DNA of 64,000 nt from Gemmatimonadales bacterium (GTDB lineage Bacteria; Gemmatimonadota; Gemmatimonadetes; Gemmatimonadales; GWC2-71-9): the NCBI GenBank assembly GCA_019637315.1, contig JAHBVU010000008.1, positions 124,001 through 188,000 of the forward strand. Direction: 5' to 3'. This document shows positions 35,437 through 41,187 of this stretch, one piece after another; position 1 is the stretch's first letter; each line of letters starts with the position of its first letter. The position numbers and the translations under genes were made by a program. The notes beneath the pieces were generated by a model. The model did not search any database. It had not been told where the DNA came from and saw nothing but the letters and a program-made list of their open reading frames with translations.

Positions 35437-36345
35437 ATGCTGATTCGTCGGGCGCCAGAGATCGCCAGTTCGGAAGTAACCGATGAGGGGCTCTATCACT
35501 CCCGGCGGGAGTGGCTTCGAGCTGCCGGGGTGGCCATGGCGGCCCTGGCAACACCGGGCGTGGCACGAGCCGCTCAGGGCCGTCAGCCCGAGGACAAGCC
35601 GACCCCGTACGACGTCATTACCACGTACAACAATTTCTATGAGTTCGGCACCGCGAAGGAGGATCCCGCTCGGAACGGGGGAACGCTCCGGACCAGGCCG
35701 TGGGTGGTCAAGGTGTCGGGCGAGGTCAAGCGCCCCGCCAGCTACGATCTGGACGATCTGCTCAAAGGATTGCCCGTGGTCGAGCGTACCTATCGGATGC
35801 GATGTGTCGAGGCCTGGTCGATGGTGATTCCGTGGCAGGGCGTCCGGATGGTCGATCTGATCCGGAAGCTCGACCCCGGCAGCAACGCGAAGTACGTGGA
35901 ATTCGTCACGCTCTATGACCCGAAGCAGATGCCCGGGCAGCGCAGCCGGACGCTCGACTGGCCCTACGTCGAAGCCCTCCGCCTCGACGAGGCAACGCAT
36001 CCGCTCACACTGATGGCCACCGGCATCTACGGCAAGCCGCTGCTCAATCAGAACGGCGCGCCGCTTCGGCTCACGGTCCCGTGGAAGTACGGCTTCAAGA
36101 GCGGCAAGAGCATCGTGGAAATCCGGTTCTCCGAGTCTCAGCCGGCCACCACCTGGAACGTGGCAGCTCCGCAGGAGTACGGTTTCTATGCCAACGTCAA
36201 CCCGGACGTGTCGCATCCGCGCTGGAGCCAGAAGTCGGAGCGGCGCCTGGGCGAGTTCTTCCGTCGGCCGACGCTCCCGTTCAACGGGTACGGCGATCAG
36301 GTGGCTTCGCTCTACAGCGGTCTCGATCTGCGAGTGAACTATTGA
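35437..36345 (+). CDS. msrP: Protein-methionine-sulfoxide reductase catalytic subunit MsrP
   Basis: The 302-residue molybdoenzyme repairs oxidised methionines in periplasmic proteins. A Tat signal [10 protein letters not shown] with Arg23-Arg24 is followed by a hydrophobic stretch and an ARAAQ cleavage region. The molybdopterin-ligating cysteine is Cys123 in [18 protein letters not shown], a hallmark of MsrP (YedY). [13 protein letters not shown] and [16 protein letters not shown] also fit. The gene is coupled to msrQ by a 4-bp overlap. Confidence 0.95.
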
Positions 36346-36977
36346 GCGGTGGTGTGCCTGAGCCGGGGGCGGCGGCGCTGGTGCGACGGGTGCTCAAGCC
36401 GATCCTTTGGATTGCCTGCCTGGCACCTGCGGGATGGCTGGTTCACGGACTGATCCGACAGGACCTTGGAGCCGATCCGGTCAAGACGCTGACCCACACC
36501 ACCGGCCTCTCGGCGCTGGTCATACTGCTGGTGACCCTGGCCGTGACGCCGGTTCGTCGGCTGCTCGACCAGCCGGCGCTGATCCGGCTCCGCCGGCCGC
36601 TCGGGCTCTTTGCCTTTTTCTACGCGACACTACACCTCGCGATCTATGCGGTCTTCGATCACCGCCTGTCGGTAGCCGAAATCGGTGCCGACATCATCGA
36701 GCACCCCTGGGTTCTCGTCGGTTTCCTGGCCTTTCTGATCCTGGCCCTGCTTGCGGCGACCTCGCCGGTGGCCATGGTGCGCCGACTGGGGCGGCGCTGG
36801 CAGCGGCTCCACCGGCTGGTCTACCTGGCGGCCGGGCTCGCGGTGCTCCACTTCTTTTGGCTGGTGAAATGGGATGCGAGCGAGCCGCTCGTCTATGCCG
36901 CCGTGCTGGCAGTCCTGCTGATCAGCCGGCTGATTGTGCGCCCTCGTCACAAGCGGTCGGCGTCCCCGGGTTCGTAG
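36342..36977 (+). CDS. msrQ: Haem-binding membrane subunit MsrQ
   Basis: Start chosen at TTG 36342, in a TTGA overlap with msrP; GTG 36354 is an alternative. The 211-residue protein has five to six membrane helices with histidines in [14 protein letters not shown] and [23 protein letters not shown] that fit b-type haem ligands of the MsrQ/YedZ family. It delivers quinone-derived electrons to MsrP in the periplasm. No regulatory site is visible. Confidence 0.9.
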
Positions 36978-37032: not shown

Positions 37033-37428
37033 ATGCTCGGGCGACTTCGGCGGTGGCGGTGGCTGGCCGGCCTCCTGGTGGTGCTCTCACCCCCGGTGGC
37101 GGGAACCGTCATTCCGCTCATCGATCCTTGCCCGATCGACACACCCTGGCTGCTCGCCGAGAGCACTGGGGATCAGCACGGCCACGACGCTCACGCAGGT
37201 CACGGTGAGCCGTCCCAATCGGACGATGCCCATTCCGGGCACACCAACTGCCATTGTATCGGTGCCTGCACCGGTGCCGCCTCGGTTGGGCTCAGTCCAG
37301 GTGCTGGATCCACACTGGCAGTTCTTCCGGCGGTCGCGCTGGCGCCTCGCGTTCCTGCGGACGCGCCGGTTCTGGTTACCCGCCCTCGCTTTCTCCTGCC
37401 TCCGTCCCACGCTCCTCCTGTCGGCTGA
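37033..37428 (+). CDS. Small exported His/Cys-rich protein, possible DUF2946-like metal binder
   Basis: The 131-residue protein has an N-terminal hydrophobic segment (WLAGLLVVLSPPVAG). The middle is rich in metal ligands: QHGHDAHAGHG, DAHSGHTNCHCIGAC, with seven histidines and three cysteines within about 35 residues. The C-terminus FLLPPSHAPPVG resembles DUF2946 proteins, which are often found next to copper-linked TonB receptors. It starts 55 bp after msrQ and lies 100 bp before the receptor gene. A role in copper or another soft metal is inference. Confidence 0.6.
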   Translation: MLGRLRRWRWLAGLLVVLSPPVAGTVIPLIDPCPIDTPWLLAESTGDQHGHDAHAGHGEPSQSDDAHSGHTNCHCIGACTGAASVGLSPGAGSTLAVLPAVALAPRVPADAPVLVTRPRFLLPPSHAPPVG

Positions 37429-37464: not shown

Positions 37465-37488
37465 CCGTAGCAGGGGCGGCCCATCATT

Positions 37489-37500
37489 GACAGCCCTGTC
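37489..37500. repeat. Inverted repeat GACAG-CC-CTGTC before the TonB receptor
   Basis: Arms 37489-37493 and 37496-37500, 28 bp before the receptor start at 37529. See the related repeat at 37449-37464. Confidence 0.25.
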
Positions 37501-37528
37501 GTGGACGGGGCGGCCGTGGAGCGTGGAC

Positions 37529-39880
37529 ATGTTCGGACTTGGGAAGAACCGGTCGAGTGCCGGTCGACTCGCGCGTGCCGCGGGTCTGGCGGGTTTCATC
37601 GCAATCGCGTCGGTCGGTTCCGCCGATGCGCAGCAGACAGGTGGAGTCGAGGGCCGGGTGACCGGCGCGGCCAAGGAGCCGATCCACGCCGCCTTGGTGC
37701 AGGTCATCGGGACCGGCAAGTCGGTCCAGACCTCACCCGACGGACGCTATCGGATCGAGGGAATTCCTGCCGGCCAGTACACCGTGGCGGTTCGGGCCAT
37801 CGGGTGGAAGACCGCCCGGATCCCGGTGGCCGTCACTGCCGGGTCGGTAGTCGTTGTCGACGCTTCGCTCACCAACGATGCCGTGGTGCTCTCTGATGTC
37901 GTGGTGAGCGTCTCTCGCGAGGCGCAGTCGCGGTCCGAGGCGACGACCAGCGTTGGTGTGGTCGATCGGACGGTTCTGGAGCAGGCCAGGCCGCACCATC
38001 CGGCCGAGATCGTGGCCCGCGTGCCGGGCGCCTGGGTGGCGAACTTGAGCGGTGAGGGCCACTTCACCGCGATTCGTCAACCGATCACGACCAAGCCGAT
38101 GTATGCCTATCTCGAGGACGGGGTACCCACCCGCTCGACCGGCTTCTTCAATCACAACGCGCTCTACGAAGTGAACCTGCCGGGTGCCGAGCGGGTCGAG
38201 GTCATCAAGGGACCTGGCTCCGCGTTGTATGGCAGCGACGCCATCGGCGGTGTGGTCAACTCGTACACGCGCGCACCGAGCGATCGCCCGAGTGGCGAGC
38301 TCTTCGTCGAAGGCGGGCGTTTCGGCTATGCCCGGGTACTCGGTACGGCGAGCAACGCCTGGGGATCCAACGGACTCCGAGCCGATCTCAACCTGACTCG
38401 CTCCGACAGCTACCGGGACGGCGCACCGTACGCTCGGCAGAGCGGCACCGTGCGCTGGGATCACCGCCTCAGCGACGCTGCGTCGCTCAAGACGGTGGTG
38501 GCCTTTTCGCACATCGATCAGCCGGGGGACGGTGGCAGTGATGTGACGCAAGCCGACTTCGATGCGCGTCCAACCGCGAACTACACTCCGATTGCGTACC
38601 GCCGGGTGCTCGCGGTACGGGCGTCGTCGTCCCTCGAGCGGCAGAGCGGCTTGTCTCACTTTACCGCCACGGTTTATGGGCGACACAACCGGCTCGAGCT
38701 GATGCCCTCCTGGCAGCTCAGCTTCGACCCGCAGATCTGGGACAGCAAGAACCAGTCGGTCGGCCTGATGGGACGCTACCGGCAGACGGTGCTGCCGCTG
38801 CGCGCCAACCTGAGCGCCGGCGTCGATCTCGAGGTCAGCCCGGGCAGCAGGATGGAACAGGCGATTCTGCCCGTGCGCGATGGCGCGTTCTTTCGCGATT
38901 ACACGCCGGGCGTCGTGCAGTACGACTACGACGTCACCTTCTGGCAGACCTCACCCTACGTACAGGCCGAGGTCAATCCCGCAGCCGGCTTGCGGCTCGA
39001 TCTGGGGCTCCGCTTCGACAACGTTGGTTTCGACTACGATACCCGGCTCGATCCGATCGCGACCGGACCACACCGGCGCCCGGCCTCGACCGGAGTGTCC
39101 TACCAGCGCCTGAGTCCCAAGCTCGGCGCCTCGTTCGAAGTGACGCGCGGGCTCAACCTGTTTGCGTCCTACCGTGCGGCCTTCCGGGCGCCCTCCGAGA
39201 GCCAGTTGTTCCGGCAGGGATCGGCGCTCAATACGATCGACCTCGCGCCGGTCAAGGCGGACAATTACGAAGCGGGGACGCGCGTGGCGCTCGGCAGCCG
39301 GGTCAGCTTCGAGGCGACCGTCTACCAGCTCGATATCGAGGACGACATTCTGACGCTCACCGATCCGGTCACCGGGCTGCGCAGCGCCAGCAACGCCGGC
39401 GCGACCCGTCACCGCGGCGTCGAACTGGGTGCCGCGGTCGAGCCGGTGCGCGGCTTGCGGATCGACGGCAGCTGGACCGTTACCAAGCAGGAATACCTCG
39501 AGTGGCGCCCCAGTGCCGCGCTCGACTACAGCGGCAACGAGATCGAGATCGCTCCGCGCGACATGGGACGGGTCGGCGCCACCTTGACGCCGCGGGCGTT
39601 CGGGCGCGGCCACCTCGCGGCCGAGTGGCTCCACATGGGTTCCTACTGGATGGACCCGCAGAACACCGAGAAGTACGCGGGGCATGACGTCTTCTCGGTG
39701 TCGGGGTCGTTGCCGGTAACTGCGCAGTTCGACGTAGTCGGCCGGGTCCACAATATCGGCGACACCCGTTTTGCCGAGACCTCGTCGTACACGGCGTTGC
39801 AGGGTCGCCGCTACCGGCCCGGGCCGCCCCGCACGTTCTACCTCGGCCTGCAGTACCGCTTCGGCGCCCAAGGAGGCTGA
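37529..39880 (+). CDS. TonB-dependent outer-membrane receptor, possibly for a metal complex
   Basis: Start placed at ATG 37529 (MFGLGKNRSSAG), followed by a signal peptide ending in SADAQQ; the frame also opens at TTG 37487. The 783-residue protein has a carboxypeptidase-regulatory domain (GGVEGRVTGAAKEPIHAALVQV), a plug with VERVEVIKGPGSALYGSDAIGGVVN-like pattern at about 215-240, and a barrel ending FYLGLQYRFGAQGG, where the last residues after the final aromatic are unusual. It is smaller than SusC receptors and resembles siderophore/copper/B12 receptors. The neighbouring His-rich and CPCC proteins suggest a metal substrate. Confidence 0.85.
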   Translation: MFGLGKNRSSAGRLARAAGLAGFIAIASVGSADAQQTGGVEGRVTGAAKEPIHAALVQVIGTGKSVQTSPDGRYRIEGIPAGQYTVAVRAIGWKTARIPVAVTAGSVVVVDASLTNDAVVLSDVVVSVSREAQSRSEATTSVGVVDRTVLEQARPHHPAEIVARVPGAWVANLSGEGHFTAIRQPITTKPMYAYLEDGVPTRSTGFFNHNALYEVNLPGAERVEVIKGPGSALYGSDAIGGVVNSYTRAPSDRPSGELFVEGGRFGYARVLGTASNAWGSNGLRADLNLTRSDSYRDGAPYARQSGTVRWDHRLSDAASLKTVVAFSHIDQPGDGGSDVTQADFDARPTANYTPIAYRRVLAVRASSSLERQSGLSHFTATVYGRHNRLELMPSWQLSFDPQIWDSKNQSVGLMGRYRQTVLPLRANLSAGVDLEVSPGSRMEQAILPVRDGAFFRDYTPGVVQYDYDVTFWQTSPYVQAEVNPAAGLRLDLGLRFDNVGFDYDTRLDPIATGPHRRPASTGVSYQRLSPKLGASFEVTRGLNLFASYRAAFRAPSESQLFRQGSALNTIDLAPVKADNYEAGTRVALGSRVSFEATVYQLDIEDDILTLTDPVTGLRSASNAGATRHRGVELGAAVEPVRGLRIDGSWTVTKQEYLEWRPSAALDYSGNEIEIAPRDMGRVGATLTPRAFGRGHLAAEWLHMGSYWMDPQNTEKYAGHDVFSVSGSLPVTAQFDVVGRVHNIGDTRFAETSSYTALQGRRYRPGPPRTFYLGLQYRFGAQGG

Positions 39881-39882
39881 TG

Positions 39883-41187
39883 ATGCAGTGGATCCGGGTG
39901 GTCGGCGCGCTGGCGCTGACGGCAATGGCAGGTTGCAGACCTGGCACCGTGCCGATGACGCCGATCGAGCTGGCGTCGGGGGCGACGGCCACCGGTGCCA
40001 CGCCGATGATGTTGGTCACCTCGGCAGGCGATCGCGTTCTGTCGTGGGTCGCGGTCGATTCCGTCAGCGGTCGCGAAGCGCTCTTCGTCGAGGTCACTCG
40101 CGACGGCGCCACCAGCGGCGATCCGGTCGTCGTCGTGCGCGACTCCCTGGGCGGTATCAATCCGCACGGGGAGGCGCCTCCGCGCCTGGCGGAGTCGTCC
40201 GACGGCGCGATCTACGTGATGTACACCGTCGGCAAGGAAGTGCCTGGTTCGCGCTTTCCGCGAAGCGCGCTCCGACTGATCCGGTCGGACGACGGCGGCC
40301 GCAGCTGGAGCGAGCCGGTCAGCGTCAACGAGGGTGAACGCTTCGGTTCGCACAACTTCCACGCGGTGCTGGGCGGGCCGGGCGGAGCGGTGCACGCGGC
40401 CTGGTTGAGTTCCCATCACGGTCGGTCGATGGTCTGGATCCGGCAGTCGAAAGACGGCGGCCGGAACTGGGACACGGCCCGCGCCATCGACAGCGCGGCG
40501 GCGTGCCCCTGTTGCCGAACGGGCTTGGCGCTTGGTCCGGATGGCAGCCTCTACGTGGCCTGGCGGCGGATCTTCGACGGCGAGGTTCGGGATGTTGTCG
40601 TGATGCGGTCGCCGGACGGGGGTACCACCTGGGACGAGCCTGTCCGACCCCGTCAGGACGGCTGGGTCTTCCACGGGTGTCCCCACGCCGGTCCGTCGCT
40701 TGAAGTTGACCAGGCGGGTGCGGTGCACGTTGCCTGGTGGACCGGCAAGCCCGGCGAGGCAGGTGTGTACTACGCCCGGTCGGCCGACGCCGGCAAATCC
40801 TTCGAGGCGGTCCCGATTGCGGTGGGCGAGAAGGCCGCGCCGGCCCATGTGCAGCTGGCGGTCGGCAGCTTCGGAACCGTGGTCGGCTGGGATGACGGTC
40901 TCACCGCGTCGCCCCGGATCCTGATCCGGGCCGCAGCGCCGGGCGGCCGGTTCGGTCCTGAAATCCAGCTGAGTCAGGGCGGGGCGGCAACCTACCCCGT
41001 CTTTGCGGTGCTCCGGGACACCCTGCAGGTGGCCTGGAGCCAGAAGGCTGCCGACGTCTACCGGGCCGATGAGGCGGCTCGCCCGGACATGGACGACCCC
41101 AAAGCGGTCATGCCGCTGCCGCGGGTGGGCCAGTCTGAGATCTTCACCCGGCGCGCCAAGGTTGCGGACCTCATGATCGCCAACTAG
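39883..41187 (+). CDS. BNR/Asp-box repeat lipoprotein with CPCC motif (sialidase-like fold)
   Basis: ATG 39883 is spaced 6 bases from AGGAGG at 39871-39876; ATG 39880 is the alternative. The 434-residue protein has lipobox MAGC near residue 18 and four Asp-box-like repeats (SDDGGRSWSEP, SKDGGRNWDTA, SPDGGTTWDEP, SADAGKSFEAV), showing a beta-propeller. Cys208, Cys210 and Cys211 (CPCCRT) and Cys266 (GCPHAGP) are unusual for sialidases. The arginine triad of true sialidases is not evident, so sialic acid cleavage is unlikely. A surface metal- or ligand-binding role with the receptor is plausible. Confidence 0.7.
   Translation: MQWIRVVGALALTAMAGCRPGTVPMTPIELASGATATGATPMMLVTSAGDRVLSWVAVDSVSGREALFVEVTRDGATSGDPVVVVRDSLGGINPHGEAPPRLAESSDGAIYVMYTVGKEVPGSRFPRSALRLIRSDDGGRSWSEPVSVNEGERFGSHNFHAVLGGPGGAVHAAWLSSHHGRSMVWIRQSKDGGRNWDTARAIDSAAACPCCRTGLALGPDGSLYVAWRRIFDGEVRDVVVMRSPDGGTTWDEPVRPRQDGWVFHGCPHAGPSLEVDQAGAVHVAWWTGKPGEAGVYYARSADAGKSFEAVPIAVGEKAAPAHVQLAVGSFGTVVGWDDGLTASPRILIRAAAPGGRFGPEIQLSQGGAATYPVFAVLRDTLQVAWSQKAADVYRADEAARPDMDDPKAVMPLPRVGQSEIFTRRAKVADLMIAN

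Follow-up and report, generated by a model that had tools for sequence, protein, structure and literature searches.

A sialidase-type propeller lipoprotein with four conserved cysteines, probably a copper-binding protein, encoded next to a TonB-dependent transporter in Gemmatimonadales

The 64,000-nucleotide stretch of Gemmatimonadales DNA analysed here (the window) raises the question of whether a protein built like a sialidase still cleaves sugars or has become something else. The gene at issue lies on the plus strand, from 39880 or 39883 (ATG) to 41187, with its stop codon at 41185-41187, and encodes 434-435 amino acids with a signal sequence and a lipobox-like AMAGC18 (judged by eye), hence a predicted lipoprotein. 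The initial annotation had read a sialidase fold from Asp-box repeats, and had suggested from several cysteines and a histidine that the domain may be an undescribed propeller binding metal or haem. Copper uptake across the Gram-negative outer membrane, and the identity of the protein that receives the metal, are largely open questions on which the surroundings of this gene may bear.

A BNR propeller with four conserved cysteines

The fold assignment is borne out by sequence comparison. BNR_2 matches the propeller with an E-value of 1.7e-12 (47.7 bits, cut-off 31.4) and is the only Pfam family above its cut-off, no NCBIfam family passes, and Asp-box repeats can be read at residues 134-142, 188-196, 242-250 and 300-307. 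The solved structures nearest by sequence are sialidases, with matches that fall for the most part within residues 113-254, a region of Asp boxes. Cys208, Cys210 and Cys211 form a CPCC motif within ACPCCR (40504..40515, plus strand), and Cys266 occurs with His268 in GCPHAGP (40675..40695, plus strand).

For comparison, 67 BNR propellers were aligned, which had been collected by similarity and not by their cysteines. All four cysteines pointed out in the initial annotation align in 63 of these: 33 members of subfamily A (the window and loci L038-L049 and L101-L120), 19 of subfamily B (L050-L068), 10 encoded on plasmids and one from IMG/VR. Subfamily A carries CPCCR or CECCR, mostly together with GCP[HD]xGP, and subfamily B carries C[EDST]CC[QNT], mostly with CPVNGP; the genome of the window encodes one propeller of each kind. 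The only other polar residues kept in all four-cysteine members are Arg228 and Arg236 (40564..40590, plus strand), each present in 63/63. The CxCC spacing and the cysteine of CPxxGP are kept together at approx. 21-26% identity, and the four cysteines are, as judged from the alignment, constrained strongly and beyond chance. Four propellers were treated as outsiders of the 63, a division that is partly circular: L028, L029 and L030 have two of the four cysteines each, Cys266 among them, and a 465-aa ORF of L052 has none and scores 58 bits to the query, compared to 55 bits for the weakest member. L003, the sole match of a search of genome contigs, is an Asp-box protein lacking CxCC and was excluded from the family.

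Two details of the metal-site proposal did not survive this comparison. His268 is present in the window protein, yet residue 268 is His in only 29 of the 63 members (Val in 29, Asp in 4, Met in 1), so that it is no family-wide ligand and was dropped as an essential one. Haem binding was rejected as unsupported, CXXCH being absent from the protein sequence. The remark that the arginine triad of sialidases is not evident, on the other hand, agrees with the alignment, in which Arg228 and Arg236 are the only positions with Arg in at least 95% of the 63 members. The column of the FRIP arginine, taken as residue 98, two before Pro100 (itself conserved in 53/63), with the motif placed by eye, holds Asp in 28 members, Ala in 24, Ser in 4, Thr in 3, and Val, Gly, a gap and Arg in one each; the window protein has Ala. 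No Tyr or Glu, the residues of the nucleophile pair, reaches 95% across the aligned 63. Because the FRIP column is not Arg and no Tyr or Glu reaches this level, the sugar-cleaving site appears to have been lost in this family. GH33 sialidases do share the Asp-box propeller and provide the best matches by sequence and by Foldseek, as expected if the protein were an active member of that group; nevertheless, with Arg in 1/63 at the FRIP column, only two arginines and neither Tyr nor Glu at 95% or above, and four cysteines that GH33 enzymes do not have in their place, such an activity is scarcely credible. The central proposal, that this propeller binds metal and is no sialidase, thus gains support from the cysteine conservation, the missing FRIP arginine and the copper contexts described below.

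Structure prediction, suggested at the outset as a check on whether the cysteines cluster with the histidine, gave a mean pLDDT of 52.5 for the window protein alone, and a propeller with a mean pLDDT of 67.9 and a pTM of 0.74 for residues 30-392 modelled with one IMG/VR relative. In this second model, of moderate confidence, one blade carries the CPCC loop ahead of its inner strand (model 185-188, residues 214-217), and the next blade has Cys266 in the same loop, ahead of its own inner strand (model 243-246, residues 272-275). The cysteines are thus predicted to occupy corresponding loops of two blades that lie side by side. In sialidases, such propeller loops form the face that bears the active site. 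The modelled placement fits a joint site made from CPCC and Cys266. Foldseek ranks sialidases first (E 1.1e-12, TMq 0.53). With VIA-align 2 the best match is CylK (7fh7, Z 31.0, rmsd 3.1, 328 aligned residues), followed by PLL-type lectins (PLL4, 8q82_A, Z 28.2, rmsd 2.7, 299 aligned), and the putative neuraminidase 4irt (Z 27.4) is the only entry among its best 50 rows whose name points to a sialidase. Because the two programs thus disagree on the nearest fold, the number of blades is unsettled.

The propeller was matched at 1e-8 in 28 of 61 genomes (including that of the window), and the subfamily-A alignment at 1e-20 in 250 of 394 genomes of the window's phylum, the weakest of which may be other BNR propellers. 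Relatives of subfamily-B type on plasmids of the Roseobacter group are mostly annotated as "sialidase family protein". Scans of viral contigs yielded a single contig with a family member, IMGVR_UViG_3300024581_004228 (L069/L070), on which phage-structural-like genes come first, then a CDCC propeller gene and metF- and metH-like genes (named by recognition of their translations). It is possibly a chimeric contig, or one with host genes at a junction.

The operon and its leader

In the window, genes for MsrP (35437-36345) and an MsrQ-like protein with a ferric-reductase domain (36354-36977) lie just upstream of a small leader ORF (37033..37428, plus strand), which is followed by a TonB-dependent transporter gene (37487..39880, plus strand, probable ATG at 37529; Pfam TonB_dep_Rec_b-barrel 3.2e-40, Plug 9.3e-16) whose stop codon overlaps the first ATG of the propeller gene at 39880. 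Downstream lie a phosphoribosyltransferase (PyrR-like) gene and PyrB- and PyrC-like genes, the latter read from translations. A TonB-dependent transporter adjoins the propeller in 29/33 subfamily-A loci, which descend from common ancestors within one phylum and so are not independent cases; it does not do so in L044, L105, L115 and, at a contig edge, L118. Locus genes were called by a codon-usage script that missed some, and L047, L112 and L115 were rechecked. Where both genes were called, they overlap or lie less than 60 bp apart in 24 of 28 loci. Genes outside the unit vary, the downstream pyr genes being common to five loci (window, L038, L039, L046, L049). The MsrP/MsrQ-like pair stands ahead of the unit in L039, L046 and L049 as well, and such a pair lies immediately before the propeller in L105; a link between copper and periplasmic methionine repair is possible. 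L105 has neither leader nor transporter, and its propeller is followed by a large Sortilin-Vps10/BNR protein (L105:8596-11808).

A TonB-dependent transporter in a copper setting recalls OprC/NosA (excerpts of PMC8610252 and PMC7558416), and one branch of the propeller family adjoins nos genes, as discussed below. OprC itself is characterised by a CxxxM-HxM copper site (PMC8610252, in part). This site is absent from the window transporter, and an OprC-type identity was rejected, because the protein has no cysteine and no HxM. Nor do the 28 adjacent transporters that were aligned (one of them partial, L117) share any Cys column, or any Met column other than the start Met, at the 75% level or above.

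The leader of the window encodes 131 aa with a signal-like hydrophobic N-terminus (by eye), a His-rich stretch, CHCIGAC and a C-terminal SHAPPVG, the last cysteine lying 46 residues before HAPP. A small His-rich ORF with a cysteine cluster is the first gene of the unit in 28 of the 30 subfamily-A loci with upstream sequence, a count that leaves aside the contig-edge loci L038, L118 and L119 and in which L105 and L115 lack the leader. These leaders end in xAPP (23 loci) or xGPP (5), with T, N, Q, H or L and in 0/28 cases Arg at the x position, and 27/28 have a cysteine 44-47 residues before this motif. The exception (L112:4093-4515) lacks the last cysteine and has Cys only at 50 and 48, and the leaders of L042 and L043 have a further one at 42. 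The pattern was drawn from the window and L039-L049 and afterwards applied to L101-L120, where 11 of the 18 loci with upstream sequence have an ORF matching strict xAPP and 16 of 18 have one after widening to xGPP, which was decided after sight of those five leaders. Among 5546 ORFs scanned, the strict pattern occurs in 27, of which 23 are at the leader position of subfamily A and 4 elsewhere. None was found at the 6 transporters adjoining subfamily B.

This layout resembles that of the CruR-BfrG-BP2921 operon of Bordetella pertussis, in which a leader, a TonB-dependent transporter and an accessory gene follow each other as they do here, although the third gene there, BP2921, encodes a PepSY_TM protein and here a four-cysteine propeller. 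According to passages of PMC9426467, the CXXC of CruR lies 45 residues before RAPP, a spacing between cysteine and PP similar to that of the window-type leaders; copper perceived at CXXC relieves the RAPP arrest, and Rho then stops transcription before the transporter gene. An excess of C over G on the coding strand is reported for CruR; in 78-base windows along the leader studied here, C exceeds G at starts of 37060-37220 and 37340-37380, but not at 37260-37300. The window-type leaders differ from CruR, a DUF2946 protein, in their xAPP/xGPP ending without Arg and in falling below the DUF2946 cut-off: against Pfam DUF2946 (PF11162) the window leader scores 15.6 bits (14.6 in a genome search), compared to the cut-off of 23.7. 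By contrast, 17 of 297 genomes of the phylum have DUF2946 matches above this cut-off (loci L125-L144), and the 16 DUF2946 ORFs read from these loci all have a terminal RAPP, which the second Cys precedes by 43-46 residues. In one hhalign comparison, the 28 leaders aligned to these 16 ORFs with a probability of 10.5-17.3% (E 0.0007-0.0014), and in another set, which included three wrongly framed ORFs, the leader/DUF2946 probability was 4.6% and 2.6%.

The leader was accordingly not filed under DUF2946: it is CruR-like in its predicted layout and its position, and its likeness to DUF2946 is weak, below the cut-off and weak by hhalign. The DUF2946 context that the initial annotation had named for comparison was thus instructive: the ORF and its CruR-like arrangement are present, and membership of the family is at most weakly indicated. 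In the CutF-CutO-CutG system of Rhodobacter capsulatus, as far as the portion of PMC9973294 consulted extends, an exported leader with CxxxC and a proline-rich C-terminus likewise governs copper genes; CutF controls a multicopper oxidase, whereas the leader here precedes a transporter-propeller pair. We infer that the leader may be a copper-sensing upstream ORF of the CruR/CutF kind. RNA folding of the gap between leader and transporter was not convincing (z -1.76, 7 of 200 shuffles as good).

Copper and thiol genes beside relatives

Other members of the family are found next to copper genes in several settings. In L041 (subfamily A), genes for a CsoR-type repressor, a heavy-metal ATPase, a cupredoxin and an HMA protein lie beside the propeller in convergent orientation. 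An AhpC-TSA/thioredoxin (TlpA-like) protein with WCxxC is encoded by the next gene downstream in 5 of 33 subfamily-A loci (L101, L102, L114, L118, L119), followed in L101 by a DsbD_TM protein; TlpA is described in PMC7558416 as the reductant of the cysteines at the copper site of oxidase subunit II, acting before the metal is loaded. A "putative sialidase" of Nitrososphaera vien­nensis is named together with DsbD in a figure legend on gene clusters upregulated under copper limitation (PMC7785015, legend), and recalls the CxCC propeller by its name and its copper/DsbD setting.

In subfamily B, an adjacent transporter is present in 6 of 19 loci and absent from 13. Four of these six (L051, L056, L065, L066) have genes for cytochrome c and NosZ-type proteins on the side opposite the transporter; cytochrome c, NosZ, NosD and ABC genes were assigned by Pfam in L066 and by clustering in the other three, and the run of L051 is cut by the contig end. 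No nos genes were seen in the other 15 of the 19 subfamily-B loci, and a copper link was noticed in none of these. Some neighbours have no copper link, such as peptidase M28 and penicillin amidase; a protein of the latter type adjoins the propeller in L052 (by Pfam), L053 and L063 (same cluster).

On plasmids, 10 loci were opened out of 67 matching records, many of which are alike. Within 8 kb, genes for copper or heavy metals occur in all ten, and in 8/10 the gene run of the propeller includes one for a copper oxidase or multicopper oxidase, the clearest run comprising a copper oxidase, a copper-binding protein, an azurin-like protein, an ABC transporter, cytochrome c, the propeller and CusA. 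The weakest cases are Marinovum, with a multicopper oxidase approx. 3 kb away, and Spirosoma, with DUF326 and a heavy-metal protein, whose propeller has CECC and lacks CPxxGP although a Cys aligns. One plasmid copy (L148) adjoins mercury and arsenic resistance genes. The plasmid relatives sit in resistance rather than uptake settings, where the same cysteine site may serve sequestration.

Proposed function and alternatives

Taken together, the missing sialidase site, the four conserved cysteines and a gene set resembling those for copper uptake suggest that the CxCC propeller is probably an undescribed copper-binding protein. We further consider it rather likely, on genomic grounds, that it is a Cu(I)-thiolate propeller of a copper-acquisition operon, accepting copper imported by the transporter when the metal is scarce. 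The sialidase-type propeller of an exported lipoprotein would have lost sugar cleavage and gained a four-cysteine Cu(I) site at its channel face, contributed by CxCC from one blade and the cysteine of GCPxxGP from the next. Under copper scarcity, ribosomes would stall on the leader ORF, and transporter and propeller would be made; the transporter would carry copper, free or in a complex, through the outer membrane, and the propeller thiols, kept reduced in some species by the TlpA-like thioredoxin encoded alongside, would accept the incoming copper as Cu(I) and hand it on to copper-dependent enzymes of the periplasm, of which N2O reductase is an example. The sequences themselves show the fold family, the conserved cysteines, the loss of the FRIP arginine and a gene layout that recurs; from the gene neighbourhoods and likenesses we infer which metal is bound, its Cu(I) state, which way it is passed, how the operon is regulated and which enzyme receives the copper. 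Points that count against the Cu(I) reading are the two disulfides possible among four extracytoplasmic cysteines, the pLDDT of 52.5 and 67.9 of the models, the variability of His268, the partly circular count of 63, a leader below the DUF2946 cut-off and without the Arg of RAPP, a window transporter with neither Cys nor HxM, the absence of both leader and transporter from L105 and L115, the many subfamily-B loci lacking a transporter or nos genes, and the resistance setting of the plasmid copies.

The first of these points leads to a different view of the protein, in which the cysteines form structural disulfides tying two blades together, the propeller serves the transporter by binding a sugar, a peptide or a metallophore, and copper has a regulatory role only. 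An exported lipoprotein with two possible cysteine pairs would suit this view, as would the presence of propeller lectins among the closest folds (PLL4, 8q82_A, Z 28.2) and of Cys266 in three propellers without the CxCC set. Disulfides alone, however, account poorly for the joint conservation of the CxCC spacing and the CPxxGP cysteine at approx. 21-26% identity, for the thioredoxin and DsbD_TM partners in some operons, and for copper neighbours in several different settings, and we regard this view as unlikely, though worth bearing in mind. The thioredoxin partners would equally suit a redox enzyme instead of a carrier, i.e. a thiol or copper oxidase or reductase that might, for example, reduce Cu(II) or chelated copper, and so would CxCC with two fully conserved arginines; yet no catalytic family beyond BNR emerged from the Pfam and NCBIfam searches, which makes such an enzyme quite improbable. 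Thiolate sites, finally, are not specific for copper, and the mercury and arsenic resistance genes beside L148 would fit a propeller binding another thiophilic metal or metalloid (Zn, Hg, As, Ag), with the copper neighbours marking general metal loci. This too seems improbable, as the named genes beside the plasmid copies are most often copper genes, and nos genes and a CruR-like leader are copper contexts.

With the Cu(I)-thiolate propeller retained as the preferred reading, the type of operon is already known from CruR, and the propeller family with its four-cysteine site is undescribed in the open-licence PMC literature searched, where no description in a copper context was found; the text of PMC6769254 mentions neither sialidase, propeller, BNR nor DUF2946. 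It is tempting to speculate, with some reserve, that a widespread and undescribed family of Cu(I)-thiolate propellers goes under the name of sialidase and helps to acquire copper and to assemble copper enzymes in hosts that range from the phylum of the window to bearers of Roseobacter plasmids, its first group standing under distinct nascent-chain copper sensors with about the spacing of CruR (45) and at most a weak likeness to the family of CruR. If true, this would provide a receiving protein for copper in which an old fold of sugar enzymes bears a new metal site, tie one branch of the propellers to genes for nitrous oxide reductase, and put right an annotation as "sialidase" that recurs. 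The leader ORFs would then be further copper-sensing arrest peptides, with which it may be probed whether the spacing of approx. 45 residues reflects the length of the ribosome tunnel.
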